A DNA stretch of 35,483 nt from contig JAOPVX010000010.1 of the NCBI GenBank assembly GCA_025965975.1, positions 1 through 35,483 of the forward strand, in the 5' to 3' direction. Below are positions 3,918 to 17,998 of the stretch, piece by piece. Numbering within the stretch: position 1 is the stretch's first letter; every line of letters begins with the position of its first letter. A model generated the notes under the pieces. The model worked only from the letters and a program-made list of their open reading frames with translations, ran no database searches and was not told where the DNA came from. Both the position numbers and the translations under genes were made by a program. This stretch comes from Mycobacterium sp. (GTDB taxonomy: Bacteria > Actinomycetota > Actinomycetes > Mycobacteriales > Mycobacteriaceae).

Positions 3918-5008
3918 CGGCGATCAGATACGCGGCGCCGGGCCGGATCAACCTGATCGGCGAGCACACCGACTACAACCTCGGTTTCGCGCTGCCGATC
4001 GCACTGCCCGAACGCACGGTGGTGACCTATGTGCCCGACGACAGTGCCGAGGTCGCGGTGCGCAGCGACCGGGAGGGCGGCTACGTTCGGATCCCGCTCG
4101 ACACCGCTCCCGGCGACGTGGCGGGCTGGGCCGGGTATGTGGCCGGGGTGATGTGGGCGCTCTGCGCGGCGGGTCAGCGCATCCGGGGTGGGACGATGTC
4201 CATCGCGAGCGACGTCGAGATGGGTTCTGGGGTGGCATCTTCGGCGGCGCTGGAGTGCGCGGTTCTCGGCGCGCTCACGAGCGCCACGGGCCAGCGCGTC
4301 GATCGGATCGAGCTGGCGCGCATCGCGCAGCGGGCCGAGAACGACTATGTCGGTGCGCCCACCGGGTTGATGGACCAACTCGCCGCCCTGTGCGGACAGC
4401 CGCGCAAGGCGTTGATGATCGACTTTCAGGAGCTGACCGTGCGGGCGGTGGGGTTCGACCCGGACGCCTCCGATGTCGCCTTGCTGCTGATCAATTCGCG
4501 TGCCCCGCACCAACATGCGGGCGGGGAGTACGCGTCGCGCCGGGCGGCGTGTGAACGCGCGGCGGTCGACCTGGGGGTGTCGTCACTGCGGGAGGTGCAG
4601 AACCGCGGCGTGGAGGTGCTCGCCGCGGTGGCCGATCCGGTCGATGCGCGTAGGGCCCGCCACATCCTCACCGACAATCAGCGGGTCCTCGATGTCGTCG
4701 CAGTGCTGGAGAAGTCCGACTTCACCGCAGTCGGAGCGCTCTTCAACGCATCGCAGGCGTCCATGCGTGACGACTTCGAGATCACCACCGACCACATCGA
4801 TATGATCGCCGACACCGCCGTGCTGGCGGGCGCACTCGGCGCACGGATGACCGGCGGTGGCTTCGGCGGATGCGTGATCGCATTGGCGCCGGTCGAGAAG
4901 GCCGACCACATCGCCGAGCAGGTACGCAAAGCCGTCGGTAATGCCGGCTATCATCCGCCAACGATCACTCGCACGCGGGCCGGCCAGGGTGCCGCACTAC
5001 TGCGGTAG
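3914..5008 (+). CDS. galK: Galactokinase (GHMP kinase)
   Basis: Phosphorylates galactose with ATP to give galactose 1-phosphate, the substrate of the preceding galT. 364 residues. The galactokinase signature [15 protein letters not shown] lies at residues 10-24, the GHMP ATP-binding loop [10 protein letters not shown] at 103-112, the catalytic region PTGLMDQLA at 149-157 (Asp154), and the C-terminal GHMP motif GGGFGGCV near 317-324. The start overlaps galT by ATGA. The 3' end overlaps the convergent ANTAR gene by 12 bp, leaving no space for an intrinsic terminator. Confidence 0.96.
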
Positions 5009-5797
5009 CGGGGCTTCCGACAGCGCGGCCCACATCAAGCCGGCCGCCTCGCGCGTGCGGTCGTCCGGCGTGATCGGCGTTCCGGTGTCGGGCTGTTCGG
5101 CAGGGGCGCCGCTGACGTGCTCGACAAGCGCTACCGCCAACTCCCGCAGCTTGACGTTGAACTCCTGGCTGGCGCGGCGCAGGATTGCCCATGCGCGTTC
5201 CGCGTCGCAGCGGACCAGGCCCATCAGCGCACCCTTGGCCTGTTCGATGGCGCCGCGCGACTGTAGGACCGTGATGATGTCCGCGATGGCCGAGGCGTTC
5301 TCCGCCGCGGTGGTGATCAGCGCCGCAGAGACAAGCTGTTCGTAGTTGATCAGGCTGGCCACCGTCGATGCGCTGGCCGGTTGGCTGAGCGTGCAGCAGA
5401 CGACGACGGTCGCCTCGTCGGCCCAGACACCGGGCACGGCCGCGGCACCATGGACCTGTTCCCAGCTCGACTCGTGTTGCCGTGCGCGGTCGCGCATGGC
5501 CGCCAACGTCAGCTCGGGCCACCGGTCGTCGGTCCACAGGTCGAGGCTCAGCACCGGCACCTGATAGGCAAGCGCATCGGGAAGAGGACCACCGATGCCC
5601 GACAGTTGGGCATCGACGAAATCAGAGCCAACGCCAAGCGCGGCGATTACCGATGGCCCTTCGTCATGGCGCTTGTCGTGGACGGTGATCGCCAGGCCGA
5701 GCGCATTGAGCAGATCCGACTGCATGCGCTCGAGGATGCGGTGCATCAGCGCCATCAGCTGCGGGTGTTGGCGTGGCTGGAAGTGCGGCGGAGACAT
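4997..5797 (-). CDS. GAF-ANTAR domain protein (candidate RNA-binding antiterminator), last gene of the stressosome operon
   Basis: 266 residues from ATG at 5797, two bases after the STAS gene's stop; the frame is open further upstream but that part overlaps the STAS gene. The N-terminal two thirds form a GAF-like sensor domain. The C-terminal about 60 residues match ANTAR, with the [15 protein letters not shown] segment followed by [22 protein letters not shown] proteins bind paired RNA hairpins and prevent termination, usually under control of an attached or partner signalling domain. Its place at the end of a partner-switching operon makes it the likely output or a co-regulated stress effector. 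Sequence supports the domain call strongly; the RNA targets are unknown. Confidence 0.88.
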
Positions 5798-5799
5798 GA

Positions 5800-6111
5800 T
5801 CAGGCGCGGGTCGTGACCGTCGCGACGCGGTCGAGGCCGGAGATGCTCAAAAGCGTCATGATCGGCCCCGTCGCGGGCACGATCAGCCCGAGTTTCGTCG
5901 TAGCGGCGACGGCGAACAACGCGCGCACGGCGGCGCTGTCGCAATAGGACACGTCCGACAGGTCGACCGTGATGGCGTCGCTGTCGTCGGCCGCTCGGTT
6001 CAGTACGTCCTGGAACTCGTTGACGTTGGCCAGATCGATGTCGCCGGTCGCTGTGACAACCGGCGGCTGCTCGGCCTCCGCAGCGGAGAGCCCGAACTGG
6101 CTATTGGTCAT
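5800..6111 (-). CDS. STAS-domain anti-sigma factor antagonist (RsbV-like)
   Basis: A 103-residue single-domain STAS protein. The phosphorylatable serine expected for this family lies in SYCDSAAV, Ser59, after the DLSDVS strand. In the partner-switching scheme the unphosphorylated form sequesters an RsbW-type kinase, and phosphorylation releases that kinase. The ATG overlaps the stop of the RsbW-like gene (ATGA at 6108-6111), and the ANTAR gene starts two bases after its stop, so all three are coupled. Its phosphatase is probably the 741-residue RsbU-like protein upstream. Confidence 0.92.
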   Translation of the reverse strand: MTNSQFGLSAAEAEQPPVVTATGDIDLANVNEFQDVLNRAADDSDAITVDLSDVSYCDSAAVRALFAVAATTKLGLIVPATGPIMTLLSISGLDRVATVTTRA

Positions 6112-6530
6112 GGATGCAGCTCCTTGCGCATTTCCACCGTGGTCCCCTGCAGGGATGGCGTGATCGTGACCTGGTCGACGAGGGCGCTCATCAACCTGCT
6201 GCCGTGTCCGCGTCGGCCATGCGCACTTCGCGGCGACGCATGCCAGCGTCCGTTGTCCCTGACCGTCAGCGCAAGACCGGTGTCGGTCGCCCGGGCCGTG
6301 ACCTCGAGTTCGACGTTACCCGTGGCGCCATGGACGGCATGCTCAACGGCGTTGGAGGCGGCCTCTCCTACGGCGAGCAGGACATCGGCGGCGGTGCAGG
6401 GATTGACCGCGGCGGTCGGCAGCCAGGTGCGCAGGTGCGCACGGATGACGGCAAGGCTGGCTGGTATCGCGGGTAGCCGGATCCGCAACGGGGCAGGTCC
6501 GCCCGCGTCGGCGCCGGGAACCCGTGACAC
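6108..6530 (-). CDS. RsbW-like anti-sigma factor / serine kinase (HATPase_c_2)
   Basis: A GHKL-type ATPase of about 140 residues. The N-box reads VGEAASNAVEHAVHG and the ATP lid DNGRWHASPRSAHGRRGHGS, typical of RsbW serine kinases that phosphorylate RsbV-type STAS proteins and hold a partner (usually a sigma factor) when idle. I chose GTG at 6530 because GGAGG lies 5 nt upstream and it gives the normal family length. A TTG at 6617 in the same frame would add 29 atypical residues. With the GTG start there is a 100-bp gap to the preceding phosphatase gene. Its output partner is not visible; no sigma gene lies in the operon. Confidence 0.85.
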   Translation of the reverse strand: MSRVPGADAGGPAPLRIRLPAIPASLAVIRAHLRTWLPTAAVNPCTAADVLLAVGEAASNAVEHAVHGATGNVELEVTARATDTGLALTVRDNGRWHASPRSAHGRRGHGSRLMSALVDQVTITPSLQGTTVEMRKELHP

Positions 6531-6630
6531 CAGCACCTCCGGTTGTCTAGCAGCGGCGACGCCGCCTGAATGTATGCGAAACCCCCCGCATCGCCTGCCT
6601 CTGCTCGACAGCCGCAATGTGCCGTTGTTG

Positions 6631-8856
6631 TCATATCACGCGGACGTGCGGGCCGTCCGACACACGGTCTTTTCCGAATACGAACCGCATACCGACGGTG
6701 GTGCCTTCTGCCGTTCCTTCGAGCTCGACATGGTTGCTCAGCGCCCGCATCAGCAGCAGCCCCCTGCCGCGCGTACCGGGGTCGGCCGGTGGTGTCTTCC
6801 ACGAACCCGAGTCGGCGATCTTGACCGCAACCTGGCGGTCGTCGAGTGTCGCCTCGATGTGCATCGTCCCGGGATCTTGCCCGCGATACCCGTGCTCGAC
6901 ACTGTTGCTGCACGCCTCGTTGACCACCAACACGATGTCTGCGACGAGCGAATCGGGCACACCCGCGCTCCGAAGCCACTCGGCGAGCTCATGTCGGACG
7001 TCGGCCAACCGCGCCGGGATCGCCTCGTTCTCGATGAGAAGCGCGCAACCTGGATGTCGGTAAAGCACGATCGCGACATCGTCGTCGTATCCGACCTTGG
7101 GGGCCAGCTTGTCGAGCATCGCGTCGGCAACCGCGTCGATGGGCAACTCGATGGTCTGCGCCATCACCTCGACGACGCGCGCGATTCCCGCATCGATCGG
7201 TTCGGCACGCCGCTCGACGAGCCCGTCGGTGTAGAGCAACAGGGTCGATCCGGTCGACAGTGCCGCGGCGGCCTGCGGTCGGGGATCGTCTCGGTTCACC
7301 GCGAGCGGCACCGAGCGCGCATCGGTCAACAATCGCGGCCGCGACCCCGGCGTGGCGAGCACAGCGGGGACGTGTCCGGCGCTGCTGTAGGACAGCATCT
7401 GGGACCGGGTGTCGAGGATGGCGACAAATACCGTGGTGCAGAACGCATCTGGAATGAAGGCCGCCACCGCATCGAGCTGTTCGAGCAGGGTCGCAGGCGA
7501 TGCCCCGGTGAGCAGCAGCGCGCGGGCCGAACTGCGGAGCTGACCCATCACCGCCGCAGCGGACAGCCCGCGACCGACACAGTCGCCGACGATGATGCCG
7601 ATGCGGTCGTCGCCGACGGGCAGCACGTCATACCAGTCACCACCGATTTCCAGTGGCGACACCGCGGGCTCGTACCGCACGGCGAAGCCCGCCGGCAATT
7701 CGGTCGGCGCAAGCATCGAACGCTGCAGCGTCAACGACGTGTCACGGGCGAGCTCGAACTGGCGAACATGCTGCATCGCGAGGCTGAGGTGTCCGACGAG
7801 GGCGGTGACGAGCGCCCTGTCCTCCGCGCTGACCCTGCGGGGCTCTGCGAACTCGAGCCACAGAGTGATGTCGCGCAACAGCGTGGCCACGATGCCGGGT
7901 GAGGAGTCGGGGTCGGCGGCCCATCCAATGGGTTCGACCGACAGCGGCAGCAGGGCGCGGGCGTCCTCGAGGGACTGTCGCAGCTGCAGTTCGAGATCGT
8001 GCCATTGCACTGCCTGCGACGTTCCCGCCAGGTGGACGCTCGGGTCGTGCTCGGCGTTCGGCCACATGATCGCCGCGACGCGCCGCACCCCAAGCGTGGT
8101 GCGGCACTCGTCGAGCGCACTCGACAGCACCTCGCCGACGCTCTTGGCCACGGTCACAGCCGTGGCGAGGCGGGCGACCGCCCGCTCCCGTTCTGCCGCC
8201 GCCCGCGCGGCGGTGATATCGCGAATCGTTCCGACGTAGGTGTCCTCGTCGGCGCTGGGCGACGTGACGGCGTTGACGCTCATCGCCACCCAGACCAGGT
8301 GGCCGTCTCGGTGCCGGATCGGCGCCTCCTCCAGCGTGCCCTGCGCGAGCAGCCAGGCCAATCGCTCATTCGACGCCCCATCGCCGGTCATCCACGGGAG
8401 CGGCCACGCGTAGGGCAGACCGTCGGGACCGTAGCCGGTGATGTCGGCGAACGCATCATTGATCTCGATCACCGCCCCGGTGCGGTCCGCGACAAAGAAC
8501 CCCTCCTGCAGCGAATTCACCAGCGCGGTGCGGAACTCGTCCCGGTGGGCGAGATCGTCGGCGCGGGCCCGCTGTTGTTCGTATCGCTTTGTGCCGTCGA
8601 GGAATCCGCGCGTCACCACGTCAAGGGCCGCCAGCGTCTGCAGCAGAAACTGCAGCGCGGCCGCGGTATCGATGCCGGAGTCCGGCCCGTCGACCAGCCG
8701 GGAGTGGTTCTCGACGATCTCCAATATGCTGATCTGTTCCTGCAGGGCCCGGCGTCCGAGCTCATGACCGACGGCCAGGGTGTCCTCGCCCTTGGCCGCC
8801 AGGTAGGCGCGCAGCGAGGCAGCGTACTTGGCGTGGAAATCCGCGGCACCGGTCAT
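6631..8856 (-). CDS. Five-domain PP2C (SpoIIE/RsbU) phosphatase with fused kinase-like ATPase
   Basis: 741 residues. Domains in order: an RsbU N-terminal-like helical domain (about 7-85, with GEDTLAVGHELGRRALQEQ), a PAS domain (about 108-216), a GAF domain (about 226-370), a SpoIIE-type PP2C phosphatase (about 375-590, with metal-binding GGDWYD at 405-410 and GDCVGRG at 424-430), and a C-terminal HATPase_c_2 with N-box VVNEACSNSVEHGY and an RGRGLLLM lid (about 605-730). The RsbU_N domain is the known docking site for RsbT in B. subtilis, and rsbT lies two genes upstream. The protein thus could both dephosphorylate and phosphorylate STAS antagonists. It resembles M. tuberculosis Rv1364c in fusion style but has a GAF and lacks a C-terminal STAS. 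The ATG overlaps the preceding stop (8853-8856). Confidence 0.93.
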   Translation of the reverse strand: MTGAADFHAKYAASLRAYLAAKGEDTLAVGHELGRRALQEQISILEIVENHSRLVDGPDSGIDTAAALQFLLQTLAALDVVTRGFLDGTKRYEQQRARADDLAHRDEFRTALVNSLQEGFFVADRTGAVIEINDAFADITGYGPDGLPYAWPLPWMTGDGASNERLAWLLAQGTLEEAPIRHRDGHLVWVAMSVNAVTSPSADEDTYVGTIRDITAARAAAERERAVARLATAVTVAKSVGEVLSSALDECRTTLGVRRVAAIMWPNAEHDPSVHLAGTSQAVQWHDLELQLRQSLEDARALLPLSVEPIGWAADPDSSPGIVATLLRDITLWLEFAEPRRVSAEDRALVTALVGHLSLAMQHVRQFELARDTSLTLQRSMLAPTELPAGFAVRYEPAVSPLEIGGDWYDVLPVGDDRIGIIVGDCVGRGLSAAAVMGQLRSSARALLLTGASPATLLEQLDAVAAFIPDAFCTTVFVAILDTRSQMLSYSSAGHVPAVLATPGSRPRLLTDARSVPLAVNRDDPRPQAAAALSTGSTLLLYTDGLVERRAEPIDAGIARVVEVMAQTIELPIDAVADAMLDKLAPKVGYDDDVAIVLYRHPGCALLIENEAIPARLADVRHELAEWLRSAGVPDSLVADIVLVVNEACSNSVEHGYRGQDPGTMHIEATLDDRQVAVKIADSGSWKTPPADPGTRGRGLLLMRALSNHVELEGTAEGTTVGMRFVFGKDRVSDGPHVRVI

Positions 8857-9479
8857 GACGAGACGCCCCGATGACGCGCAGCGAGCACCAGTGCGTCATC
8901 GGATTCCTTGCTGTGGGCGGCCACAATGTGCTCGGCGATCACGGTGGCCGATGCCGCGAAATCCAGCGTATCCAGGTAGCCGTCGGAGATGCCGTCGCTG
9001 GTGATCACGACCAGGTCACCGTGGCTAATCGAAACCTCTTGGGGTGCAGTGCCGTCCGGTATCCGGAAACCGATGATACCGCCGGCCAGCCGCACCGAAG
9101 ATCGGACCTCGGCGCCGCCGGGTCGTTTGGCGATCAGGTTGGCCGTGACGTTGCCAACGCCGATCCAACTGAGCATGTCCGTGTCGAAGTTGATGCGGGC
9201 CAAAGTGATTGCCGCGCCCCTGGTCTCGGTGAGCGCGCGATGACACAGCTGCATCAGGTCGGCGAGTGGTTCGGTAGGCGCGCCGTCGACCACCTCCACT
9301 GCACATGCTGCCGCGGTGGCCGCATGCGAACCGTGGCCAAGCCCGTCCACCACACCGAACAACGCGCCGTTCGTCCCAGAGTCGATTGCGATCGAACGGT
9401 CACCGGACACCACCTCGCCCGGTCGCGGGCGACCGGCCGCCGCCCACTCGATCGGCCCGAGCCAGCCGTGCTCATCCAT
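8853..9479 (-). CDS. rsbX: RsbX-like PP2C phosphatase
   Basis: 208 residues comprising only a SpoIIE/PP2C-type catalytic domain. Visible metal-binding motifs are VVDGLGHGSHA near residues 43-53 and TSDGISDGYL near 160-169. Single-domain phosphatases at this place in stressosome operons are RsbX, which resets the stressosome by dephosphorylating RsbR and RsbS after RsbT has acted. Here it sits directly after rsbT (start overlapping the rsbT stop by 8 bp) and before the large RsbU-like gene (4-bp overlap). The gene symbol is assigned by domain and position, not by measured activity. Confidence 0.87.
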   Translation of the reverse strand: MDEHGWLGPIEWAAAGRPRPGEVVSGDRSIAIDSGTNGALFGVVDGLGHGSHAATAAACAVEVVDGAPTEPLADLMQLCHRALTETRGAAITLARINFDTDMLSWIGVGNVTANLIAKRPGGAEVRSSVRLAGGIIGFRIPDGTAPQEVSISHGDLVVITSDGISDGYLDTLDFAASATVIAEHIVAAHSKESDDALVLAARHRGVSS

Positions 9480-9894
9480 CCGGCGGAATCCATTTCCACA
9501 TCTCGACGACCGTGCCCTTACCGGGCGCCGAGTCTACGATCAACCGATCCATCAGCCGCCGCGCGCCCGGGAGCCCGAGGCCCAGCCCGCGGCCGGTGGA
9601 ATAGCCGTCTTCGAGCGCGCGCTCGATGTCGGCGATGCCGGGGCCGTCGTCCTCCGCGCGCACCACCAACGCCTGTCGGCCGTCGCGGTACTGGACTCCC
9701 ACTGAAACCTCGCCCCTCCCGGCGTAACTGGTGATGTTGCGGGCGATTTCGGAGATCGCAGTAGCGATCATCGTGACATCGGTCAACGAGAAGCCGAGCT
9801 GACGGGCAAGTTCGTGCCCGGCCTGGCGGGCGGTGACGATGTCGTCGGAGTTGTTGACGTCGACCACGAAGTCAGCCACCACCGCCGCGCCCAT
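9472..9894 (-). CDS. rsbT: RsbT-like serine/threonine kinase of the stressosome
   Basis: 140 residues, a GHKL ATPase of RsbT type. The N-box is SEIARNITSYAGRGEV and the G-boxes DDGPGIADIERALEDG and STGRGLGLGLPGARRL, which is characteristic of RsbT rather than RsbW. RsbT phosphorylates RsbR and RsbS, leaves the stressosome, then activates an RsbU phosphatase. The ATG at 9894 overlaps the end of rsbS by 23 bp; GTG codons at 9882 or 9879 are alternative starts closer to the rsbS stop. It lies between rsbS and the RsbX-like gene, the usual order. Confidence 0.92.
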   Translation of the reverse strand: MGAAVVADFVVDVNNSDDIVTARQAGHELARQLGFSLTDVTMIATAISEIARNITSYAGRGEVSVGVQYRDGRQALVVRAEDDGPGIADIERALEDGYSTGRGLGLGLPGARRLMDRLIVDSAPGKGTVVEMWKWIPPDG

Positions 9895-10261
9895 TCGCCA
9901 GCTTCTTCGATTCGAGCTGCCGATTCAGCAGCGCAAGGCCTTCTTCCAAGTCCAGCGCTGTGTGCATGTCGTCGAACGCCAGGCCCAGCTGGACCATCGC
10001 GAAGGCCACCTCGGGCTGCAGGCCAACGATCACGGTGTCCGCGCCGCGCAACCGCGTCATGTGCGCGATGGTGCGTATCGACCGGGCGGCGAACGAATCC
10101 ATCACGTCGATCGCGGTGACGTCCACGATGATCCCGTGCGCGCGGTAGCGGCTGACCCGCTCCATCAGATCGTGGCGCAACCGCTCGGCGTCGGAGTCCG
10201 TGAGCGCGGCCTGCACCGAGGCGATGAGGATCGTGCCCTGTTTCAGGATGGGTACTGGCAT
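9872..10261 (-). CDS. rsbS: RsbS-like stressosome scaffold (STAS)
   Basis: 129 residues, a lone STAS domain with high similarity in pattern to RsbS. The phosphorylation site expected from B. subtilis RsbS Ser59 is conserved as Ser56 in VMDSFAAR. Downstream motifs VIVGLQPEVAFAMVQLGL and the C-terminal LDLEEGLALL are also typical. RsbS co-assembles with RsbR into the stressosome core and traps RsbT. It starts 22 bp after the rsbR stop. No strong Shine-Dalgarno is visible before the ATG, so it may depend on coupling with rsbR. The C-terminus ends in a glycine run whose codons overlap the rsbT start. Confidence 0.93.
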   Translation of the reverse strand: MPVPILKQGTILIASVQAALTDSDAERLRHDLMERVSRYRAHGIIVDVTAIDVMDSFAARSIRTIAHMTRLRGADTVIVGLQPEVAFAMVQLGLAFDDMHTALDLEEGLALLNRQLESKKLANGRGGGG

Positions 10262-10283
10262 GAGAAGGCCGCGACAGCGGTGG

Positions 10284-11165
10284 TCAGCCGTTGAGTTCGC
10301 CGGTGCGGGTCACTTCGTAGCCCAGCAACCGCTCAGCCTCCTCGATGCCGCCCTGCAGGTCGCCGACCGCATTCATCTTGGACAGGTCAAGGCCGATCGT
10401 CACAAGGGTCAACGCGATGTCCGAGGAAAGGCCGGTGATGATCACGCTCGCACCCATCAGGCCCGAGGCGTCGACCGTCTGCACCAGATGGTTGGCCACC
10501 GTTGAGTCGATGGTGGGTACCCCGGTGATGTCGATGACCACGACCTTTGCGCGGTTGGCGCGGATCGCACGCAACAGCTGCTCGGTGACCTGCCGGGCCC
10601 GCTGGCTGTCAAGCACGCCGATGATCGGCAGGATCAAGAGCTGCTCGCGCACCTGCAGCACCGGCGTGGACAGCTCGCGGATGGCCTCCTGCTGCTGGCG
10701 AATGATGCGTTCGCGTTCCTGCACGAAGCTGACGCCCACGGTGTTGGCGATGCGGTTGGCGGCGGGCTCGTAGGCGTCGAGCACCCGGTTCAGCAGGTCG
10801 AAGTCGGTCTGATACTTCTCGAACAGCGACCGCGCGAGCACGTCGCGCAGCAGCAGCACGATGCCGAGGACCTCGTCGGTCTCCACGCCACGGGGGATGA
10901 TGCGTTCCGACAGGTCACGCGCATAGGCCTGCAGCGCCTCGACGCTGCCGGTCTCGAGCACCTCGACGTAGTTGTCGTACACCGCGGTCGCCTCGGAGAA
11001 CAACTCGTCGGGGGTCATCGCCGTCAGCAGTTCCGCCTCGGTGATCCGGCGGGCCCACTCCTCCCGCAGAGCGGTTCGATTCTGTCGCAGGTGCTTGACG
11101 AGTTGGGGCAGTAGACCTTCGCCCGAAGTCTCGGTGCTCGCGAAATCCGTCGACGATTCGGACAT
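10284..11165 (-). CDS. rsbR: RsbR-like stressosome sensor/scaffold
   Basis: 293 residues from ATG at 11165, chosen because GGGAGG lies 4 nt upstream; the frame is open to 11261 but the extra residues look non-coding. The N-terminal half (about 15-165) is a helical, globin-like RsbR_N sensor region without an obvious ligand motif. The C-terminal STAS domain (about 175-285) contains GVLDSQRAR and DITGVPTIDSTVANHL. These align with the B. subtilis RsbRA phosphosites Thr171 and Thr205, spaced by the same 34 residues, but both are serine here. It is the first gene of the eight-gene operon. An 8-bp inverted repeat lies 16 bp upstream of its start. Confidence 0.93.
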   Translation of the reverse strand: MSESSTDFASTETSGEGLLPQLVKHLRQNRTALREEWARRITEAELLTAMTPDELFSEATAVYDNYVEVLETGSVEALQAYARDLSERIIPRGVETDEVLGIVLLLRDVLARSLFEKYQTDFDLLNRVLDAYEPAANRIANTVGVSFVQERERIIRQQQEAIRELSTPVLQVREQLLILPIIGVLDSQRARQVTEQLLRAIRANRAKVVVIDITGVPTIDSTVANHLVQTVDASGLMGASVIITGLSSDIALTLVTIGLDLSKMNAVGDLQGGIEEAERLLGYEVTRTGELNG

Positions 11166-11288: not shown

Positions 11289-11327
11289 CGGCGCATGCCC
11301 CCCAGGGCGCGAGACGGAGGACGACCG

Positions 11328-11690
11328 TTGTCAGGCACGGATGCGATCAACACCGCGCTCGCCTACCAGAACGGGATCGCGGTGCTGAAGGTCGCTGGCG
11401 ACATCGATCTGGCCACCGTCCCTGCGCTGGAAGCTGCTATCGAGGAAGCGCTGATACCCAAGCCGACGGGACTGGTCATCGACCTGTCCGAGGTCGGGTT
11501 CCTTGCCTCGGCGGGACTTCAGGCCCTGGTGGCGACACACAACAACGTCAGCCCGTCCGCGCATTTTGCGGTCGTCGCGAACAGTGCGGCGACGAGTCGG
11601 CCGATACAGCTGACCGGCCTCGACCAGATCTTCGCGCTGTACCCGACGCTGGGCGAGGCGCTGACCGCCGTTGAGGCGAGCTCGAAGTAG
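11328..11690 (+). CDS. STAS-domain anti-sigma factor antagonist, divergent from the stressosome operon
   Basis: A single STAS domain, 120 residues from TTG at 11328 (GGAGG at 11316-11320) or 131 from ATG at 11295. The strand-loop-helix expected to carry the phosphoserine reads DLSEVGFLASAGLQAL, a common actinobacterial variant in which Asp before Ser is Ala. It is transcribed away from rsbR, with 162 bp between the two coding regions. It may be an additional substrate of the kinases and phosphatases in the neighbouring operon, or belong to a separate sigma switch. Its end lies 30 bp from the convergent lactate permease. Confidence 0.85.
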   Translation: MSGTDAINTALAYQNGIAVLKVAGDIDLATVPALEAAIEEALIPKPTGLVIDLSEVGFLASAGLQALVATHNNVSPSAHFAVVANSAATSRPIQLTGLDQIFALYPTLGEALTAVEASSK

Positions 11691-17383: not shown

Positions 17384-17998
17384 TCAGGCGACGTCGGTCA
17401 AGCCGTATCCGCGGACCCTGGCGACTTCGGCCAGCAGGCGCCGCAGCCGATGCCGCCCGCGATGCAGCCGCGACATCACCGTCCCGATCGGGGCGTCGGT
17501 GAGCTCGGCGATCTCCTTGAAACGACGGCCCTCGATATCGGCGTAATAGACGGTGGTGCGCAACTTTTCGGGCAGCGCCCGCATCGCTTCCCTGATGTCA
17601 TTGTCACCCAACAGGTCAAGCACCTGATCCTCCGCTGAGCGCAGTCCGCGTGATGAGTGACGGGCCTCGGCGAGCAGTTGGCCGTCGGTGATCTCGTCGG
17701 TCAGCCACTGCACCGGCCGTCGCTGTTGTTTGCGGTAGCCGCTGATGTGGGTGTTGAGCAGAATGCGGTACAGCCAGCCGCCGAGGTTGGTGCCGTCGCG
17801 AAACCCGTGAAACCCGGCGAACGCCTTCGCCGCGGTCTCCTGCAGCAGGTCTTCGGCCTCGGTGCGGTTGCGGGTCATCTTCATCGCCTGCGGGTAGAAC
17901 CCGTCCAACAATGGGATCGCGTCACGCTCGAACCGCGCGGTCAGCCCGAGATCGCGATCGACTGACTGGAACTGCGATGTTGCGGTGCTTCTGTGCAT
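17384..17998 (-). CDS. ECF RNA polymerase sigma factor, SigH-like paralogue
   Basis: 204 residues from ATG at 17998, which has AGGAG 6 nt upstream. Sigma region 2 starts at [14 protein letters not shown] and contains [20 protein letters not shown] and [12 protein letters not shown]; region 4 contains [16 protein letters not shown] and [17 protein letters not shown]. The sequence is close to mycobacterial SigH (same [12 protein letters not shown] and [11 protein letters not shown] blocks) but diverges elsewhere. SigH is normally followed by rshA, its zinc anti-sigma. Here nothing follows on this strand, since the gene ends against the convergent protease operon. It is therefore either an orphan sigma factor or one controlled from a distance. 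Confidence 0.92.

Follow-up and report, generated by a model that had tools for sequence, protein, structure and literature searches.

The stretch of DNA analysed here (the window), 35,483 nucleotides making up contig C10 of a 7.4-Mb Mycobacterium sp. genome, carries on its minus strand, from position 11165 down to 4997, an operon of eight genes in which predicted stressosome components and the parts of a partner switch are followed by a gene for an ANTAR regulator. The last two genes, coding for an RsbV-like STAS protein (STASv, 5800..6111) and for the ANTAR protein (4997..5797), constitute a pair that is retained in nearly all genomes of the genus possessing this ANTAR protein, most of which lack RsbRST genes alongside it. 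The pattern points to a partner-switching module with STASv as its hub and the ANTAR protein as its output, plugged in the window into a stressosome; the probability of this reading is put at about one half. The original prediction laid stress on the lack of a sigma factor gene, which is ordinary for such loci, and it is the STASv–ANTAR tail that is the unusual part.

The STASv–ANTAR pair in the genus and beyond

Orthologues of the ANTAR protein (E at most 1e-30) are present in 57 of 396 genomes of the genus, the source genome included, and all 56 other loci were fetched and scanned with profiles built in this analysis. In 55 of them and in the window, i.e., in 56 of 57 genomes, ANTAR is immediately preceded by STASv, while the exception, L190, has an ANTAR protein of 43% identity which may represent another subfamily. 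The two genes are separated by −1 to 40 nt, with 2–23 nt in 53 of the 55 pairs and 8–10 nt in 41; the 2-base gap reported for the window is correct. A search for STASv in the same 396 genomes (E at most 1e-22) found it in 64, 56 with ANTAR and eight without, and ANTAR occurs without STASv in one. A convergent gene or unrelated genes lie 3' of STASv in the eight ANTAR-less genomes. At locus L283 a gene at 9870-11035, Sir2-like by eye, shares 4 bases with the end of STASv and occupies the usual place of ANTAR.

The region upstream of the pair is variable. The full set of rsbR, S, T, X, UW, and W is present at five loci (the window, L137, L138, L139, and L047) and possibly at a sixth, in genome G005, where it may be split between contigs L099 and L141. 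rsbT and rsbUW without R, S, and X are found at L140 and L057, rsbUW with a divergent STAS gene and no RST at L142-L146 and L148-L152, and other phosphatase-kinases at L173 and L189, while at the remaining loci there is a kinase, alone or together with a weakly matched phosphatase, or else (at 24 loci with STASv) none. RsbT is absent beside ANTAR in 50 of 57 loci. The full chain leading from a stressosome to ANTAR is rare (5/57 ANTAR loci, and ANTAR at 2/68 other RsbT loci). The RsbU_N domain is found on the phosphatase in all six loci with RsbT versus none of the 12 phosphatase loci without it, which is what one would expect were RsbT to act through this domain. It is worth mentioning that L287 (the same as L043), L288 (L044), and L289 (L105), like L140 and L057, encode RsbT and RsbUW, the latter with RsbU_N, in the absence of RsbR, RsbS, and RsbX, and that L287 keeps a remnant of RsbR; an RsbT deprived of its stressosome has no easy explanation. 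In genome G028 the RsbRST-UW (L039) and STASv-ANTAR (L182) genes lie at separate places, so that any remaining crosstalk between them would have to act in trans.

Partner switches are best known as controllers of sigma factors, and in a classical switch of the RsbW-RsbV-SigB type the ANTAR protein would take the seat of sigma, being sequestered by the RsbW-like kinase and freed by unphosphorylated STASv. Such an arrangement, consistent with the kinase domain that 31 of 56 loci, and the window, encode upstream of STASv-ANTAR, and with the 4-base overlap of the rsbW-like gene and STASv, is nevertheless unlikely, as the kinase is the very part that gets lost. Of the 55 STASv-ANTAR pairs, 24 have no adjacent kinase, nine of these 24 showing a remnant of it just upstream (E at most 0.01, one of them only 9 residues long), while the YCDS motif of STASv, containing the presumed phospho-serine, is intact in 24/24 loci lacking the kinase and in 31/31 having it (55/55). 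In a classical switch, loss of the anti-factor should leave STASv useless, unless a kinase encoded elsewhere serves, for which these genomes were not searched. The ratio of nonsynonymous to synonymous substitution rates (dN/dS) in ten hand-picked pairs of close loci, six without and four with the kinase, is 0–0.35 for STASv and 0.03–0.15 for ANTAR. The ANTAR protein thus seems to need STASv, STASv not always to need ANTAR, and the adjacent kinase to be dispensable. This pattern of gene losses and co-occurrence favours STASv over the RsbW-like kinase as the likely direct partner of the ANTAR protein. A precedent exists in Mycobacterium smegmatis, for which two papers (PMC7693655 and PMC10950880) describe RsbW2 as a kinase only and the STAS protein RsfB as a hub acting on another protein; the kinase and anti-factor roles are already separate there (PMC7693655).

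The pair occurs in more than one genomic neighbourhood: on the galK side (5 loci), with a gene for a family-4 membrane protein downstream (13), with two genes of families 5 and 6 preceding it (about 30), or isolated, e.g., in L182 and L189. Outside the genus, a search of 397 genomes of the order (E at most 1e-20) found relatives of the ANTAR protein in 12 genomes, at 13 loci. A STAS gene lies within about 1.5 kb of them at six loci (in L299 the match is weak), all belonging to one family code (f14), and an RsbW-type kinase at three, the order in L305-L307 being ANTAR, STAS, and then a convergent kinase. A STAS gene is located just downstream in eight of eight Amycolatopsis loci (one of them checked with Pfam) and, on the other strand, at one of two Actinophytocola loci, while none adjoins the ANTAR relative at two Sciscionella and two Kibdelosporangium loci.

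Three sets of other ANTAR genes served as controls. A STAS gene is found in 3 of 40 loci taken from consecutive rows with E of 1.0e-18 to 1.0e-16 (rows of G000 and G004 being skipped), in 3 of 27 one-per-genome loci, a set biased to the best-scoring ANTARs (27 of 29, after removal of L334, from the same genus, and L337, moved to another set), and in two of eight other ANTAR loci of the source genome; a kinase occurs in none of the 40, 27, and eight, respectively. Neither the tight STAS–ANTAR pairing of the genus nor the kinase appears in these controls. A long open frame in L325 gave the appearance of an ANTAR–STAS fusion, which was rejected, as the ANTAR frame ends at 1680 and the STAS match begins at 1738. 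In L240 (8758-13773, Mycobacterium numidiamassiliense) another ANTAR gene adjoins a partner switch: its product has a PAS-like N-terminus by eye, and next come a STAS-like gene and a large gene matching PP2C, HATPase, and STAS.

A number of points weigh against the pair being a switch and its output. Eight genomes hold STASv without this ANTAR, and STASv therefore has, or can take, another job. The locus counts are not independent, because the loci are related by descent; moreover, the family-4 gene also occurs, several kb upstream of the pair, in the family-5/6 group, and the two groups may therefore be one ancestral site. Of the 13 relatives from outside the genus, seven lack a nearby STAS gene, and in the kinase-bearing L305-L307 the match to the profile is confined to its C-terminal half (positions 114-262). 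The general STAS profile was seeded with the STAS genes of L298, L305, L307, and L222 and so favours those loci; Pfam also detects the seed genes, in a check that did not extend to STAS in L306 and L309. Finally, STAS proximity in 8 of 75 control ANTAR genes (kinase in 0 of 75) is not rare, which indicates that some STAS–ANTAR proximity is general in these bacteria. These control figures, together with neighbourhoods shared and partly inherited by related species, are what speaks for a chance adjacency kept by descent only. Such an origin is very improbable, considering that the pair has several neighbourhoods, that it is retained while the neighbouring gene of the module decays, and that a different gene order is found in a part of another family. 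With STASv beside it in 56 of 57 genomes, under varied inputs, the ANTAR gene owes its place to more than chance, in line with the original prediction.

Structure of the operon and the sigma factor question

All eight genes are present in the predicted order; some of the Pfam E-values given below come from slightly longer frames. rsbR (10284..11165) codes for a stressosome sensor and scaffold protein with an N-terminal domain and a C-terminal STAS domain (Pfam STAS, 6e-15, longer frame); RsbRD_N matches weakly, at 1e-3, below the Pfam cut-off (longer frame). The protein aligns with the RsbR of a solved stressosome over residues 27-287 of 294 (phmmer, 4e-29). rsbS (9872..10261) codes for a STAS scaffold protein of 129 amino acids (STAS, 2e-14), which aligns with the solved RsbS 6jhk over residues 1-113 of 126 (phmmer, 1.1e-24), the DSF motif included. 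In the STAS domain of RsbR, D-S stands against D-T in the solved chain, and the later T is aligned. The roles of the phosphorylatable STAS residues of RsbS and RsbR come from work on Bacillus subtilis. rsbT (9472..9894), overlapping rsbS by 23 bases, codes for the switch kinase (HATPase_c_2, 6e-13), and the next gene (8853..9479) for an RsbX-like phosphatase of the SpoIIE/PP2C type (SpoIIE, 1e-9). The product of rsbUW (6631..8856) is a phosphatase/kinase composed of RsbU_N (7e-15), PAS, PP2C (SpoIIE, 1e-38), and HATPase (HATPase_c_2, 1e-29) domains; the GAF domain formerly ascribed to it was not matched by Pfam.

The rsbW-like gene (6108..6530) has a GTG start codon, picked by comparison, and codes for a kinase of 140 amino acids (HATPase_c_2, 1e-21 on the longer frame 6108-6617). 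The product shares 41% identity with the HATPase domain of RsbUW, matches the UsfX of its own genome with E of only 0.07, and has Rv1364c (4e-10) as its sole match among solved chains. STASv gives a Pfam STAS match of 6e-11. The ANTAR protein, 266 amino acids long, has a C-terminal ANTAR domain and an N-terminal part that is perhaps GAF-like. The GAF-ANTAR label given to it is borne out with respect to the ANTAR domain, while Pfam detects no GAF in the window protein; GAF_2 was matched in five of 38 aligned family members (best 1e-4) and the unrelated Smoa_sbd in eight, so that the term GAF-like, resting on weak Pfam matches, is weakly based. The ANTAR gene overlaps by 12 bases a convergent gene, presumably galK, judging from its sequence and its partner galT. 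The genes of the operon mostly overlap or nearly touch, except for 22 bases between rsbR and rsbS and the 100 bases (6531..6630) between rsbUW and the rsbW-like gene; owing to the latter gap, the chain is less than tightly coupled throughout, in contrast to its original description.

The locus thus carries predicted stressosome components of the RsbRST type (the RsbR and RsbS scaffolds with phosphorylatable residues, the RsbT kinase, and an RsbU_N target domain), as well as all the putative parts of a partner switch (a HATPase kinase, a STAS antagonist with a presumed phospho-serine, and a PP2C phosphatase). Its ninth member is a divergent STAS gene flanking rsbR (11295..11690, plus strand; STAS, 2e-15), which corresponds by position to the published mycobacterial rsbV and is present in 67 of the 68 other loci with RsbT.

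RsbT (E below 1e-25) was found in 69 of 198 genomes of the genus, the source genome included, with weak matches in 11 more. The 68 other loci, a few of them cut by contig ends (cut loci in this or the ANTAR set include L099, L106, L141, L186, and L188), usually comprise R, S, T, X, and UW. In the divergent locus L286, with an RsbT of 45% identity, neither RsbU_N nor PP2C was matched. An ANTAR gene is present at two of the 68 (L047 and L057) and missing from 66, a few of which are contig-cut. No SigF-like gene was found in any of the 135 loci fetched in total, some of which overlap each other, with a query that covers SigF-like genes, other sigma types being outside its reach, and that retrieves sigF elsewhere in the source genome, on contig C291. 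The operon does lack a SigF-like gene, as predicted, and homologous operons do not carry a SigF-type gene at its tail position; because SigF-like genes are absent from all these loci, the lack is no surprise. A sigma factor hidden near the operon is ruled out for the SigF-like type, and no target of the SigB/SigF type lies within the module. A sigma-70 region-2 match at 17717-17887 (minus strand) lies outside the operon, about 6.5 kb beyond its start, and in L231 an open reading frame resembling by eye an extracytoplasmic function sigma factor is located about 2 kb upstream of STASv.

In a tree of RsbUW proteins (90 rows, quick method, midpoint root) the window groups with four other full operons, and 58 of 63 rows with UW only fall in one branch. 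The tree fits an old UW–STASv–ANTAR unit that would have undergone later losses; gain and loss are not separable in it, because the root was placed at the midpoint and not inferred.

The genes rsbV and rsbR-S-T-X-UW are known from mycobacteria including Mycobacterium marinum (Ramesh et al. 2021, PMC8115616), where RsbRST, RsbUW, and RsbV have been proposed to control SigF, encoded elsewhere; the term ANTAR does not occur in the main text of that paper. If the same held here, the real output would be SigF, reached in trans via UsfX, and the ANTAR protein, merely co-transcribed, would work alone. A usfX-sigF locus is indeed present in the source genome (contig C291), 66 of the 68 other RsbT loci have no ANTAR, and STASv is kept without ANTAR in eight genomes. 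Such an exclusive route to SigF is rather unlikely, however, as it leaves unexplained both the STASv–ANTAR pairing in 56 of 57 genomes, when 50 of 57 loci have no RsbT, and the grouping of STAS with ANTAR, and partly with a kinase, in a part of another family. About 1.3 kb upstream of usfX-sigF, on the same contig C291 (L191), is an ANTAR gene (8054-8734, minus strand) whose product looks PAS-like by eye at its N-terminus, and a small STAS gene (5024-5479, plus strand) is convergent to sigF.

Proposed mechanism and the ANTAR domain

The genes, their domains, the conserved pairing, the pattern of losses, and the co-occurrence of RsbT with RsbU_N are observed, and the RsbT–RsbU, kinase–STAS, and phosphatase–STAS steps are established biology. 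In the mechanism proposed for the STASv–ANTAR module, a HATPase kinase (the RsbW-like protein and/or the kinase domain of RsbUW) would phosphorylate STASv on the serine of YCDS, and the PP2C domain of RsbUW would remove the phosphate. Stress would free RsbT from RsbR-RsbS to act on the RsbU_N domain of RsbUW, so that the phosphatase would be driven by the stressosome. One phospho-form of STASv may then bind the ANTAR protein at its N-terminal domain and set its activity, probably RNA binding; the contact, its direction, and the RNA step are inferred. A second branch, leading to UsfX-SigF, may run through the divergent STAS gene.

In its wider form, the proposal is that an RNA-binding ANTAR antiterminator is under the direct control of a STAS protein regulated by phosphorylation, which thereby connects the stressosome, or other phosphatase and kinase inputs, to antitermination, as an undescribed class of partner switch spread over dozens of mycobacterial species and, with another gene order, a part of a second actinobacterial family. 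It is put forward tentatively, the odds leaning slightly against it.

The identity of the ANTAR domain is certain, with a Pfam match of 2e-14 in the window protein and matches in 38 of 38 aligned members. The source genome has 17 ANTAR matches; on its contig C404 (L192, 1051-11461) six ANTAR matches form two groups of three, alike in arrangement and about 9 kb from each other, which looks like a duplication. Mapping on EutV by alignment (with a chain numbering offset of two, itself inferred) indicates that of the RNA-contacting residues R142 is kept in the window protein, Y164 is replaced by W, R175 by N, as in NasR, and R177 by K. The residues found at these places are conserved in the ANTAR rows: R181 in 57/57, W203 in 56/57, N214 in 57/57, and K216 in 56/57. 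On the opposite side of the scales, the equivalent of E160 is A in 57/57 and that of M172 is H (35) or Q (22), and those of K143 and K147 are also replaced (by G/A/S and Q, respectively). According to PMC8934654, the E160A change in EutV lowers binding 60-fold and M172A abolishes it. RNA binding by the window protein may thus differ or be lost. The best-matching solved chain, 6hmj, a PAS/PAC sensor protein that includes an ANTAR-like stretch, has A and S at these two positions; as it also lacks both residues, RNA binding may be different, or missing altogether, throughout a subfamily. In the window, Rfam gave no RNA target at gathering score, which says nothing on targets elsewhere, and a scan of the window for a dual hexaloop, of little power (0.05 or fewer expected in shuffles) and not covering targets elsewhere, found none. 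Of the original suggestion that stress sensing is wired to antitermination, a partner switch feeding the ANTAR protein gains comparative support, while antitermination is unproven, given the replacement of E160 and M172.

If true, an output at the RNA level would bring transcription elongation, in addition to promoter choice, under stress control and would supply an input for one of the numerous ANTAR proteins that these bacteria possess. The comparison of genomes predicts the STAS protein, and not the kinase, as the partner of ANTAR, which is directly testable.

Relation to known systems

A literature search, limited to one library of papers, found none linking ANTAR regulators to STAS-based partner switches. 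The accessible part of PMC8131098, which deals with the ANTAR protein PdtaR, mentions no STAS or RsbW, and the main text of a survey of ANTAR RNAs in actinobacteria (PMC8164766) contains neither "STAS" nor "sigma". With the EutV and NasR antiterminators (PMC8934654; PDB 6wsh and 4akk) the window protein has in common the ANTAR domain, with R142 kept, Y164 replaced by W, R175 by N, as in NasR, and R177 by K; unlike in EutV, the E160, M172, K143, and K147 equivalents are replaced and the input would come from a STAS switch.

The published mycobacterial set (PMC8115616) has the same genes as the locus, the divergent STAS gene among them, with an identical order at the loci fetched here, and likewise no SigF-like gene nearby. 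In contrast to that set, in which 66/68 loci (a few contig-cut) lack STASv-ANTAR 3' of rsbUW, in the window rsbUW is followed by genes for an RsbW-like kinase, a second STAS protein, and ANTAR. RsbRST with an output other than a sigma factor is already known from Vibrio: as described in PMC9237108, the stressosome locus of Vibrio vulnificus is likewise linked to a non-sigma output module, there presumed to consist of the two-component proteins D1-D2, whereas here it would be a partner switch with ANTAR. A parallel in switch design is the RsfB-RsbW2 switch of SigF in M. smegmatis (PMC7693655 and PMC10950880), which likewise has a STAS hub, a dedicated HATPase kinase, and a PP2C phosphatase; its target is RsbW1-SigF, while here it is an ANTAR gene that lies directly 3' of the STAS gene.

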